Shown here: in pieces, positions 5,063 through 29,974 of the stretch
Layout: every line of letters begins with the position of its first letter
Numbering within the stretch: the first letter of the stretch is position 1
IMG/VR virus record: IMGVR_UViG_3300020000_000048
Location: 1-33,448 of that record
DNA: 33,448 nt
Source: a virus
Direction: 5' to 3' (one strand)
Made by a program: the position numbers and the translations under genes
The notes under the pieces: generated by a model
The model's database searches: none
Seen by the model: only the letters and a program-made list of their open reading frames with translations
What the model was told of the DNA's origin: nothing

Positions 5063-6010
5063 ATGAGCATCTACAGCGACCAGTTCGATGTTCTGGTCTC
5101 CACCACGCTCGACAAGGTGCGCCCGAAGCTGGCCGACCAAATCACGACCGACAACGCCCTCACGGCTTGGTTGAACTCCAAGTCCCGTGTGACGCTCGAC
5201 GGTGGTTCCGTGATTCGGCGCCCGCTTCTGTTCGCCTTCAACGACACGGTGACGACCTACTCGGGCTACGACATCATCGACACCACGCCCCAGGAGGGCC
5301 TGGGTTGGGCGGAGTACGAGTGGCGCCAGCAAGCTGGCTCCGTCGTCATCTCCGGCGAGGAAGTTCGGAAGAACTCCGGTGCGGCCCAGCTCATCAACCT
5401 CTTGCAGGCGAAGGTGGACCAGCTCCGCATCTCGGTTGCGGACGACATGAACGCGATGCTGTGGGCCTCGTCCGTCGGTAACGGCGGCAAGGACTTCAAC
5501 AGCGTCCCGGTCCTGGTGAAGGACTCGGGCACCATCGCGGGCATCGACCCCAACACGTACACCTGGTGGAAGTCCACCAAGGCCGGTACCATCGACCTCA
5601 CGACCTTCGACGGCGTGTCGGCGATGGTGAACCTCGCGAACACCATCCGGGTCAACAAGAGCCGGGCGGACGTTGCGTTCGCGTCGCAGGCCGTGTACGA
5701 GGCGTACCAGGCCCTCGCGGTCCCGAACATGCGGTTCAACGACAACGGCATGGCGGACCTCGGGTTCGAGAACATCGCCTTCCAGGGCGTGCCGCTCATC
5801 TTCGAGCCGGACGTCCCGTCGGGCACCATCTACATGCTGAACAGCGACCGCTTGGAGTTCGTGCAGCACTCGGCCGCATGGCTGAGCCTGACCGAGTTCC
5901 AGCGTCCGTACAACCAGGACGCCAAGGTCGCCCTCATCCTGTCGATGGGGCAGCTCCTGACCGACTCGCGCCGGAGCCACGGCTTCGCAACGGCGGTCAC
6001 CACCTCGTAA
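5063..6010 (+). CDS. Major capsid protein (HK97-fold)
   Basis: Predicted 315-residue shell protein directly after the scaffold gene. The segment from about residue 50 to 110 (IRRPLLFAF, YSGYDIIDTTPQEG, EYEWRQQAGSVVISGEE, NSGAAQLINLL) follows the pattern of many HK97-fold capsid proteins: E-loop, then the start of the long spine helix. The later segment ADVAFASQAVYEAYQAL followed by FQGVPLIFEPDVPSGTIYMLNSDRLEFV is the characteristic P/A-domain region. There is no N-terminal delta domain or protease gene, consistent with a separate scaffold. Codons are strongly biased to C/G endings, as expected for a highly expressed protein. Confidence 0.93.
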   Translation: MSIYSDQFDVLVSTTLDKVRPKLADQITTDNALTAWLNSKSRVTLDGGSVIRRPLLFAFNDTVTTYSGYDIIDTTPQEGLGWAEYEWRQQAGSVVISGEEVRKNSGAAQLINLLQAKVDQLRISVADDMNAMLWASSVGNGGKDFNSVPVLVKDSGTIAGIDPNTYTWWKSTKAGTIDLTTFDGVSAMVNLANTIRVNKSRADVAFASQAVYEAYQALAVPNMRFNDNGMADLGFENIAFQGVPLIFEPDVPSGTIYMLNSDRLEFVQHSAAWLSLTEFQRPYNQDAKVALILSMGQLLTDSRRSHGFATAVTTS

Positions 6011-6261
6011 CAGAGGTACCCGAACCTGTACTAGCGCAGGGTAAGGGGACCACCCCCGAAGGTGTAAGCAGGAGTCCAAGGGTGAAACCGAGGACAGAGA
6101 GCCCAGGCCTGAATGAGCGTCGCGGATGGCTAGACCATCGGACGTTGTAGGGGGTAGAGGACCGGGGCCAACGGACGGAAATCAAGAAGGAATCCTGCTG
6201 AGCGGGAGACCGGAAAGATGAAAGTCCTGAGGCCCCGGGACCTCTGAACTAGGAGGATTGC
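6011..6261 (+). ncRNA. Structured non-coding region after capsid gene
   Basis: No credible reading frame exists in these 251 bases, unusual in a tightly packed arm. The plus strand can form several helices. GTCC (6074-6077)/GGAC (6092-6095) encloses GGT-GAA-ACC. AGCGTC (6116-6121)/GACGTT (6141-6146) is continued by GATGG/CCATC around a CTAGA loop. A long closing stem pairs AGAGG-A-CCGGGGCC (6156-6169) with GGCCCCGG-GA-CCTCT (6231-6245). Inside it, GGAC/GTCC (6173-6176/6224-6227) and TCCTGC-TGA-GCGGGA (6193-6207) can form. There is no T-tract, so it does not read as a simple terminator. A strong ribosome binding site for the next gene follows at 6251-6256. It could be a structured leader, processing element or separate small RNA; no known family is recognised. 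Confidence 0.55.
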
Positions 6262-6730: not shown

Positions 6731-7171
6731 ATGGCCTACAAGAAGCGTCACATCGAGGGACTGACCTCGGCCGCGCCCACCATCCTGGGCACGCTCGGTC
6801 TCGGCGCGACCTACGCCCGTCCCGTGAGCATGAAGGCGCGGCTTTGGTCCAGCTCGGCGAAGTCCGTCGCTGGTGCCGACACCGCTATCCGGGTGGAGCT
6901 GAAGGACGCGGACGGCAACATCTTCTACCTGGACGCGGCCGACGTGGACTACGCGACCTCGGCGAAGAACTACGTGTTCTCCAAGGACGACACCACGACC
7001 GGCATCACCGGCCACACGTATGTTGACCAGACCGGTGCCACGCTGGCCGGGGTCTCGAACACGTATGCGCCGCTTCCTCCGGTCAAGGGTCCGCTGACGG
7101 TGACCATCCGTAACTGCGGTACCGCCACCGACTACGTCGAACTCGACGTTATCGTGGACACCGGAAACTAA
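6731..7171 (+). CDS. Putative head decoration protein, paralogue A
   Basis: Predicted 146-residue protein, paralogous to the product of 8229-8672. Both contain VELKDADG-x-IFYLDAAD-x-DY in the middle and VKGPxTVTIRNCGTATDY, then a VDTG ending, near the C-terminus. The composition is beta-rich with many Thr, Gly and Asp and no membrane segment. Placement right after the capsid block suggests a capsid-surface (decoration or cementing) role; a tail-accessory role is not excluded. The start has GGAGTAAGGA just upstream. Function is inferred from context. Confidence 0.82.
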   Translation: MAYKKRHIEGLTSAAPTILGTLGLGATYARPVSMKARLWSSSAKSVAGADTAIRVELKDADGNIFYLDAADVDYATSAKNYVFSKDDTTTGITGHTYVDQTGATLAGVSNTYAPLPPVKGPLTVTIRNCGTATDYVELDVIVDTGN

Positions 7172-7181
7172 GGGGGCAGTC

Positions 7182-8162
7182 ATGGCAGTCACCATCACGA
7201 CCGTTACCTGGCCCCGCGACGATTCAGCTCGCGGTGGTCCTCAGAACCCCAAGAAGGGACTCCGCGGTGCTGCCGGTGCGACCTACGTCGGTCCCATCCC
7301 CGGCACCAAGGACGGCTCTTCCATCAAGGGCCCTTCGAGCCCGACGCACGCAACCGGAACTTTCGGGGCTGGTGGCGTCGAGGACTCGACCGGTTCCCGC
7401 AAGAGTGACACCTACAACGCCGACCAGAACACTGGTGGGTTGACGGGTGGTCCAAGCACGACCGTCACGCGACAGGCGGGTGGAGGCGCAGGCGCCACCA
7501 AAACCGCCTACCTCGGCGCTGGAGTTCCCGGGGGCAGCACTCCCGGTAACCCCATCGACAAGACGGGTCGTGCAGCGGACACCGGCACGGACCGCTTCGG
7601 CCGCTCCCTCACGGGTGCTGCCTATCTGAGCGGTGCGGCTGCTGGCCGGTACACGTACACCAACTTCGATGGCCGTCCGACCAACGATGGTGATGGGGCA
7701 CGGCTGGCGGGAGCCAACCGCGGGACCTCCATCTCCGGCGAGACGGTGACAAAGTACCAGGACATCCCGGTGCCCAGCACCTCGGCCGCCGCTTCCGGCG
7801 TGCCTGCGGTCATCGGCGCTGCCCTGAAGATTCAGGTGGACGTTCACACGGATGACCTGGCAGGTGGGGCGAACGGCCGACTCGGGGTCGAGGTGGCGCT
7901 GTTCAAGCGCGGCACCGACACCGATGAGGATGGTCCCCTGGTGGGCGTCATCCGCGCGACCGGCACGACCGGAGCGACGGATGCCTTCACCGGCCTGACC
8001 GCCTCCACGTCGTACGTCGCGTACGTTCGCTGGCTCGTGGACCGGCGCGTCCGGTTCTCCGGCCGCTCCAAGGCGGGGTTCTACGGGTTCAACCCGGCAA
8101 CCATCGCCAAGACGAGCAGGGGCTCGGTCCAGAGTGCCCGCACGGTGGTCACAACCTCGTAA
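7182..8162 (+). CDS. Gly/Thr-rich structural protein with C-terminal beta domain
   Basis: Predicted 326-residue protein lying between the two decoration-like paralogues. The N-terminal two thirds are low-complexity Gly, Ala, Thr, Ser and Pro (TGSRKSDTYNADQNTGGLTG and similar), compatible with an extended fibre. The last ~120 residues (from about PVPSTSAAASGVPAVIGAAL) alternate hydrophobic strands. The stretch DAFTGLTASTSYVAYVRWLV resembles the strand-turn-strand pattern of fibronectin type III or Ig-like modules. A capsid-surface fibre or adhesin is a reasonable inference; no sequence family is firmly recognised. The ribosome binding site is AAGGGGG upstream of the ATG. Confidence 0.8.
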   Translation: MAVTITTVTWPRDDSARGGPQNPKKGLRGAAGATYVGPIPGTKDGSSIKGPSSPTHATGTFGAGGVEDSTGSRKSDTYNADQNTGGLTGGPSTTVTRQAGGGAGATKTAYLGAGVPGGSTPGNPIDKTGRAADTGTDRFGRSLTGAAYLSGAAAGRYTYTNFDGRPTNDGDGARLAGANRGTSISGETVTKYQDIPVPSTSAAASGVPAVIGAALKIQVDVHTDDLAGGANGRLGVEVALFKRGTDTDEDGPLVGVIRATGTTGATDAFTGLTASTSYVAYVRWLVDRRVRFSGRSKAGFYGFNPATIAKTSRGSVQSARTVVTTS

Positions 8163-8228: not shown

Positions 8229-8672
8229 ATGGCTTTCAAGCAGGTTGGGCCGCTCGCTGCGGTCACGAACACGAACCCCAAGGTCCTCGGCACCGTTGAC
8301 CTCGGCTCCCGGTACTGCAAGGTCATCGGGTTCTACGCGCACAACTGGGCCTCGTCCGCGAAGGCGGGCGACGGCACCGACGCGGCCGAGATTGTCGAGC
8401 TGAAGGATGCCGATGGCGTCATCTTCTACCTCGATGCAGCGGACCGCGACTACAAGACCGCCCCCGGCAAGAAGGTCTTCTTCAAGCTGGACGACACAGT
8501 TACCGGCCTGAACGTGGTCGGAGCGGATGCCACCGGCGCCGCGGCAGGGGCAACTACTCCTCTGGACGTTGTGGTGAAGGGGCCGGTCACGGTCACCATC
8601 CGCAACTGCGGGACCGCGACGGACTACTTCGAGATTTACCTCATCGTCGATACTGGACGCAGCAACAGCTAA
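8229..8672 (+). CDS. Putative head decoration protein, paralogue B
   Basis: Predicted 147-residue protein, the second copy of the decoration-like pair. It shares the IFYLDAAD-x-DY and VTIRNCGTATDY signatures with the 6731 gene but diverges at the N-terminus and in the central loop (NVVGADATGAAAGATTPLD). Two paralogues of equal length around a Gly-rich gene suggest an old tandem duplication followed by specialisation, perhaps for different capsid positions. The start has CTGAGGAG about 9 bases upstream. A virion role is inferred from neighbours; no enzymatic motif is visible. Confidence 0.82.
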   Translation: MAFKQVGPLAAVTNTNPKVLGTVDLGSRYCKVIGFYAHNWASSAKAGDGTDAAEIVELKDADGVIFYLDAADRDYKTAPGKKVFFKLDDTVTGLNVVGADATGAAAGATTPLDVVVKGPVTVTIRNCGTATDYFEIYLIVDTGRSNS

Positions 8673-29032: not shown

Positions 29033-29140
29033 AGTATGATTTAGTATGATTGCGGATTTATTGTCATAAAAAACTCCTCGTGTGACCTGGGCAAACGGGT
29101 TTATATGACTGAATCTAACTGAATCATACTGAATCATACT
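29033..29140. repeat. AT-rich inverted array of period-10 repeats
   Basis: AGTATGATT occurs at 29033-29041 and 29043-29051, exactly 10 bases apart. Its reverse complement AATCATACT occurs at 29122-29130 and 29132-29140, also 10 apart. ACTGAA further repeats every 10 bases at 29108, 29118, 29128 and 29138. The two 19-base arms are complementary at 18 of 19 positions (the exception is a G-U wobble in RNA) with a 70-base spacer. The island is clearly AT-rich against its GC-rich surroundings. Candidates are an operator or promoter control site, a replication-origin iteron array, or a long RNA stem. TGTGAC and TATGAC, 17 bases apart around 29081-29108, are a weak promoter candidate. Confidence 0.8.
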
Positions 29141-29280: not shown

Positions 29281-29338
29281 CGGGAAGCTTCCTCCCCTTC
29301 CCGGCAAAGCAAAGGACCCCCCAACCGGGGGGTCCTTT
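29281..29338. terminator. Bidirectional terminator between convergent arms
   Basis: Two hairpins lie in tandem. The first pairs CGGGAAG (29281-29287) with CTTCCCG (29297-29303). The main one is AAAGGACCCCCC (29311-29322), loop AACC, GGGGGGTCCTTT (29327-29338), a perfect 12-bp stem. It ends in TTTT on the plus strand and has the matching A-run for the minus strand. It sits between the last plus-strand gene and the end of the minus-strand operon, so it can stop both transcripts. Confidence 0.93.
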
Positions 29339-29359
29339 TGCATGTAAGGTGCTGTCAGC

Positions 29360-29974
29360 TTAGCCGATGCTACGCTTTCTTGCGGCGTAGAGCGAGGCCA
29401 ATCCGAGCAGCAAGAGACCGCCACCCGCGACGTACAACCAGGGGTTGATGCCGGTGAAGGCTGTCTTCTTTGGCGGCACGACGCCCTTCTTCGGCCCATT
29501 CGGCGAAGGCGGAGTAATCGTGACGGTGGGGGGCGGGGTGGAACTCGTGCTCGTGCTCGACGGTGATGGCGTCGGACTGTCCGATGGGGACGATGTGGGT
29601 GTGGGTGTAGGACTTTCGTCCGTCGTCAGCACACATCCTGCCTCCAGGACCTCCGCTCCGGTCTCACCGTTCGGGAACACGAAGTCGAGGTTCTTCCCGG
29701 GGTAGCTGAACACACCGCCGTACTTGTCGGTGTACTCGTACGCCGGGATGATGTCCCCGCCCAGGCCGTTGCCGACCTGCTCGTGGTCATTGTGTCCCCC
29801 TTTGACATAGCCGTCCGACGCGATGTCCGTCGTGATGACCACATAGGGGTTGGTCGCCGAGCCGGTTCGGTGGCACAGGGTCACCTTGTGCTCGGGTGGC
29901 TTGGTGGCATTCGCGGCGGTCATCAGACCGAGCGAGGCCACCACGGCCACGAGTGGTGCCAGGAACTTCTTCAT
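29360..29974 (-). CDS. Secreted, sortase-type wall-anchored surface protein
   Basis: Predicted 204-residue protein starting at 29974 (RBS GGGAGGAC upstream). Signal peptide MKKFLAPLVAVVASLGLMTAANA, cleavage after about residue 23. Residues 28-115 contain HKVTLCHRTGSATNPYVVIT, GHNDHEQ, GGDIIPAYEY and a second Cys (C114), a pattern familiar from actinobacterial secreted proteins. A Ser/Thr/Pro stalk follows (about 120-170). The C-terminus is TAFTG (171-175), a hydrophobic helix to about 196 and basic ARKRS, a variant sorting signal of the LAxTG/LPxTG class lacking the leading Leu. It would put a phage protein on the host wall; superinfection exclusion is a possible role, as inference. Last gene of the minus operon, ATGA-coupled to the mini-ORF upstream. 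Confidence 0.85.
   Translation of the reverse strand: MKKFLAPLVAVVASLGLMTAANATKPPEHKVTLCHRTGSATNPYVVITTDIASDGYVKGGHNDHEQVGNGLGGDIIPAYEYTDKYGGVFSYPGKNLDFVFPNGETGAEVLEAGCVLTTDESPTPTPTSSPSDSPTPSPSSTSTSSTPPPTVTITPPSPNGPKKGVVPPKKTAFTGINPWLYVAGGGLLLLGLASLYAARKRSIG

Follow-up and report, generated by a model that had tools for sequence, protein, structure and literature searches.

A structured 251-nt region behind the major capsid gene of an uncultured soil phage, plausibly an enlarged form of a hairpin conserved in position among its relatives

Phages need far more of their capsid protein than of the proteins encoded beside it, and the late mRNA of phage T7 carries RNase III sites in the form of intercistronic hairpins. 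In T7 and LUZ100 a strong terminator, or boundary element, immediately follows the capsid gene (PMC10134795), and in phage L an intra-operon terminator is suspected after the procapsid module (PMC8022706). GC-rich intergenic stem-loops direct processing of the cip-cel operon and set its stoichiometry (PMC10311766). Phage PAK_P3 produces two abundant intergenic RNAs of ~100 nt, sRNA1 and sRNA2 (PMC4933390).

Here we analyse a 33,448-nt stretch of viral DNA (IMG/VR virus record IMGVR_UViG_3300020000_000048, positions 1 to 33,448), hereafter the window. An earlier note had reported a gap of 251 nt after the capsid gene, and this length is exact: the capsid stop ends at 6010, and 6262 is the first position of the next gene (Table 1). 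The capsids of relatives L001–L003 are 82% identical to that of the window. The product of the next gene, gp6262, has orthologues in relatives according to alignment A2 and to tblastn, which gives 31–50% identity, and searches of PHROG and Pfam found no match to it; in most relatives compared, the gene 3′ of the gap is the gp6262 orthologue. Beyond gp6262, two paralogous genes (6731–7171 and 8229–8672, 49% identical), probably for virion decoration proteins, lie on either side of a gene at 7182–8162.

Table 1 Features at the post-capsid junction of the window
Feature	Coordinates	Strand	Basis
Major capsid gene, 315 aa	5063–6010	+	phrog_9953 major head protein, E 1.6e-60
Non-coding structured intercistronic region, 251 nt	6011–6261	+	Fold energy; no conserved frame; no Rfam match
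Domain 1, small interrupted hairpin	6015–6051	+	Predicted fold; z −2.3 alone (6011–6051 tested)
Domain 2, branched, two inner helical arms	6052–6155	+	Predicted fold; z −2.0 alone (6052–6154 tested)
Domain 3, unbranched rod hairpin with 5+8-pair base	6156–6245	+	Predicted fold; z −6.7
Shine–Dalgarno AGGAGG of next gene	6251–6256	+	Sequence; unpaired in predicted fold
Next gene, gp6262, 154 aa	6262–6726	+	Orthologous in relatives

That the gap folds into a strong RNA structure, as the note had observed, is borne out by its predicted energy. The minimum free energy of 6011–6261 is −104 kcal/mol against a mean of −81 kcal/mol for shuffled sequences (z −4.6 to −4.7), and none of 200 dinucleotide shuffles was equally stable. 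The region ranks second among 266 sliding 251-nt segments of the plus strand (20 shuffles each) and stays in the top three among the segments re-scored with 100–200 shuffles. At that depth the segments starting at 8511 and 8636 match its z, so the region is strong yet not unique by energy alone. Its mean pair probability is 0.93 and its composition is purine-rich (G 91, A 70, C 59, T 31).

The predicted RNA consists of three domains, and its excess stability comes nearly all from 6155–6246, the 92 nt within which the rod was tested (0/500 shuffles equally stable); domains 1 and 2 are weak singly. The closing stem of 5 + 8 pairs is as the note had described it (6156–6160/6241–6245 and 6162–6169/6231–6238). 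It does not surround two further helices, as had been claimed, but continues as one rod without branches in which four short helices are stacked (6173–6176/6224–6227, 6181–6183/6217–6219, 6189–6190/6210–6211 and 6193–6198/6202–6207), with symmetric, almost purely purine internal loops between them; the inner pair probabilities are about 1.0. One of the two hairpins placed before this stem is indeed simple, and the other proved to be the branched domain 2, which is closed by a helix of ACCCCC with GGGGGT (6052–6057/6150–6155) and has pair probabilities mostly above 0.9.

For comparison we collected relatives through IMG/VR searches with the capsid, terminase and portal; 30 distinct loci had a readable junction and reached at least 45% capsid identity. 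At the post-capsid junction every one of these 30 carries a strong GC hairpin. In these relatives the 60 nt that follow the capsid gene fold at −30 kcal/mol on average; the corresponding value ahead of their capsid, portal and gp6731 genes is −16 to −19 kcal/mol, and no such hairpin occurs there. From the end of the hairpin to the next start the median distance in relatives is 17 nt; in the window 16 nt separate the rod from the next ATG, which leaves the Shine–Dalgarno sequence free. The window thus shares with the group a hairpin at the orthologous site, flanked by the capsid gene and the gp6262 orthologue, and domain 3 is the counterpart of the hairpin of the relatives. The gap of the window departs from the one typical of the group, which spans 36–109 nt with essentially one hairpin (a usual rather than strictly defining form), in being 251 nt long with two extra domains. 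The median is 63 nt over 31 loci including the window, and the two closest relatives (82% capsid identity) have gaps of 44 and 67 nt, about 190 nt shorter than that of the window.

It is the helix, rather than its sequence, that recurs in these relatives. For the 21 hairpins whose stems are clean, the arms average 50% identity across the seven pairs next to the loop, and several different pair types occur at every stem position tested. Within a locus the two arms pair along their whole length, a result that is complete by construction because the stems were selected as helices, and arms from different loci pair at 58%. These comparisons indicate that arm sequence was rewritten while the helix persisted at each locus. 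The covariation analysis that the note had proposed yields paired changes, and these concern the short hairpins of the relatives rather than the 251-nt form or its extra 144 nt. The relatives' stems have a median of 15.5 pairs and a mean z of only −2.7, as GC-rich arms let shuffled sequences fold well too. The longest relative gap, the 109 nt of L004/L005, is no more stable than its shuffles (z −0.1), and the idea of a series of growing forms is therefore weakly supported. No relative that carries the 251-nt form emerged when IMG/VR was scanned with motifs or with capsid, terminase, portal and gp6262 as queries, although very near records possibly lie outside these scans. A scan of IMG/VR for the rod with exact and degenerate motifs returned three contigs (L018, L198 and L199), and the L018 match was rejected as unrelated coding sequence. 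Among the contigs compared, the ATP-binding motif in the terminase frame of L028 (82–1524) is interrupted by a stop and lengthened by one residue (GGL*LGSGKT), which may reflect a sequencing error, an insertion or recoding.

Because a hairpin is kept in 30/30 relatives, we read 6011–6261 as an enlarged version of this position-conserved element rather than as an isolated novel RNA. We consider it moderately probable that the region is a cis-acting element of the polycistronic late mRNA through which the capsid message is protected or processed. We infer this role, and an effect on capsid dosage, from the arrangement of the locus. The very stable rod would block 3′-to-5′ exonucleases, mark a cleavage point, or both; the upstream capsid message would then outlive the downstream message and capsid protein would be made in excess. 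The Shine–Dalgarno sequence exposed after the rod would let the next gene begin translation independently, and some attenuation may add to the boundary role. The fact that the two closest relatives manage with 44–67 nt speaks against this reading of a 251-nt region. Of the interpretations that the earlier note had offered, a structured control element or processing site fits best, given the junction hairpins with rewritten arms, and a discrete non-coding RNA fits poorly. A group of uncultured soil phages thus keeps an RNA structure, not a sequence, right behind its capsid gene, almost always without the T-tail of an ordinary terminator. If the cis-acting reading is right, this would be a simple explanation, open to test, of how one phage operon yields far more capsid than neighbouring proteins, and the 251-nt case would show the extent to which such an element can be elaborated.

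Alternatively, the hairpin could be an attenuator at which transcription partly terminates after the capsid gene without a U-tract, reducing transcription of the downstream late genes. The position agrees with the terminators of T7, LUZ100 and, by suspicion, phage L cited above, and the rod has the GC-rich hairpin of an intrinsic (rho-independent) terminator. However, the T-tract of such terminators is lacking, as the note had stated for the gap; GAACTAGG follows directly after the rod. At least four T within the 8 nt after the stem occur at just 1 of 31 clade loci, the window counted among them, and 30/31 have fewer. The window does have a normal T-tailed terminator of its own elsewhere (29312–29340), in which the GC hairpin GGACCCCCCAACCGGGGGGTCC is followed by TTTT; this one is of the ordinary type, sits between convergent genes and is predicted on both strands. 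Since T-tails are almost absent from the clade, we favour protection or processing over classical termination and regard attenuation as possible but unlikely. On either side of the terminator at 29312–29340 are two further features. A segment at 29033–29140 in this GC-rich genome holds AT-rich inverted and direct repeats (TGAATCATAC / GTATGATTTAGTATGATT) that form a long hairpin, and is possibly an origin or regulator-binding site. The minus-strand gene at 29360–29974 encodes a protein that looks secreted, with a stretch rich in Ser, Thr and Pro and a membrane anchor at its C terminus; a Pfam search found no match to it, and its style suggests that the host may be actinobacterial.

More distant relatives bear on the same question. 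T-tailed hairpins stand at the post-capsid site in L089, L196 and phage ct52p938, and therefore favour a transcriptional role, a point against the protective one. A strong hairpin is absent from this site in the distant relatives Mx8, Mx9, ppBjS10J-1 and Mwe-JY13. In the distant contig L046, the post-capsid gap is 162 nt long (5964–6125) and is predicted to fold (z −3.9) into a long closing stem that encloses an inner arm, and so represents a second large RNA at a post-capsid junction.

Less well supported is a discrete phage non-coding RNA of ~250 nt, excised or transcribed from the late region, that would act in trans or form a component of the particle. The purine-rich composition, the high pair probability and the ordered symmetric internal loops suit such an RNA, and the abundant intergenic RNAs of PAK_P3 provide a precedent (PMC4933390). 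The short gaps of the relatives (36–109 nt overall, 44–67 nt in the closest two) do not, nor does the weakness of domains 1 and 2 taken singly. Searches for a promoter-like site near the gap, or for a promoter and terminator of its own, found none. Neither the IMG/VR relatives, nor phage, plasmid and E. coli records, nor roughly 300 bacterial genomes yielded a sequence homologue; the only BLASTN matches of the gap in the phage, plasmid, E. coli and bacterial genome sets were short ones that we judged to be chance. The Rfam search that the note had suggested was null at gathering scores, with two chance matches at E up to 10. We therefore consider the discrete RNA put forward in that note improbable. 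We give similarly little credence to the broader proposal that the whole 251 nt is a new structured RNA that replaced the post-capsid hairpin in this lineage (a trans-acting non-coding RNA, a virion or packaging RNA, or a ribozyme) in which the three domains cooperate.

A mobile or catalytic RNA (an intron, a ribozyme or a remnant) inserted at the hairpin site would account for the roughly 190 nt that the window has in excess of its closest relatives and for the branching of domain 2. It is very improbable, because the capsid gene is intact, the gap contains no endonuclease or reverse-transcriptase gene, and the permissive Rfam search returned only the two chance matches just mentioned. A group II intron, to which a few motifs had pointed, was rejected: domain V (RF00029) had no match in the window at E ≤ 10. 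A search for tRNAs and tmRNAs found none.

Least credible of all is a coding feature, either a small gene or a capsid extension by −1 frameshift of the kind known from T7 gene 10: beyond the capsid stop the −1 frame continues for 46 codons, against 2 and 5 in the two closest relatives and a variable number elsewhere, and open frames are expected by chance because the stretch is T-poor. The note's description of the gap as lacking a reading frame accordingly holds for conserved frames and not for this unshared one; a small conserved protein frame, which the note had said would count against a structural RNA, was looked for across the relatives and did not occur.

Set beside the systems described at the outset, the region resembles sRNA1 and sRNA2 of PAK_P3 in being non-coding and intergenic in a phage genome; those RNAs were seen as discrete late transcripts of ~100 nt, whereas the region of the window is a predicted RNA. 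Like the RNase III sites of T7 late mRNA, it lies between the cistrons of a phage late transcript as a hairpin interrupted by internal loops, although the stems of most relatives (median 15.5 pairs) are short for RNase III and cleavage here is hypothetical. As in T7 and LUZ100 (PMC10134795), an RNA structure lies immediately 3′ of the major capsid gene in a late operon; here, by contrast, nearly all members have no T-tract, the structure spans 251 nt in the window, the capsid belongs to another lineage and termination is a possibility only. Processing has been shown experimentally in the cip-cel operon and we infer it for the post-capsid hairpin, but the two arrangements are alike in placing GC-rich stem-loops between the genes of one operon, beside a gene whose product is needed in excess.
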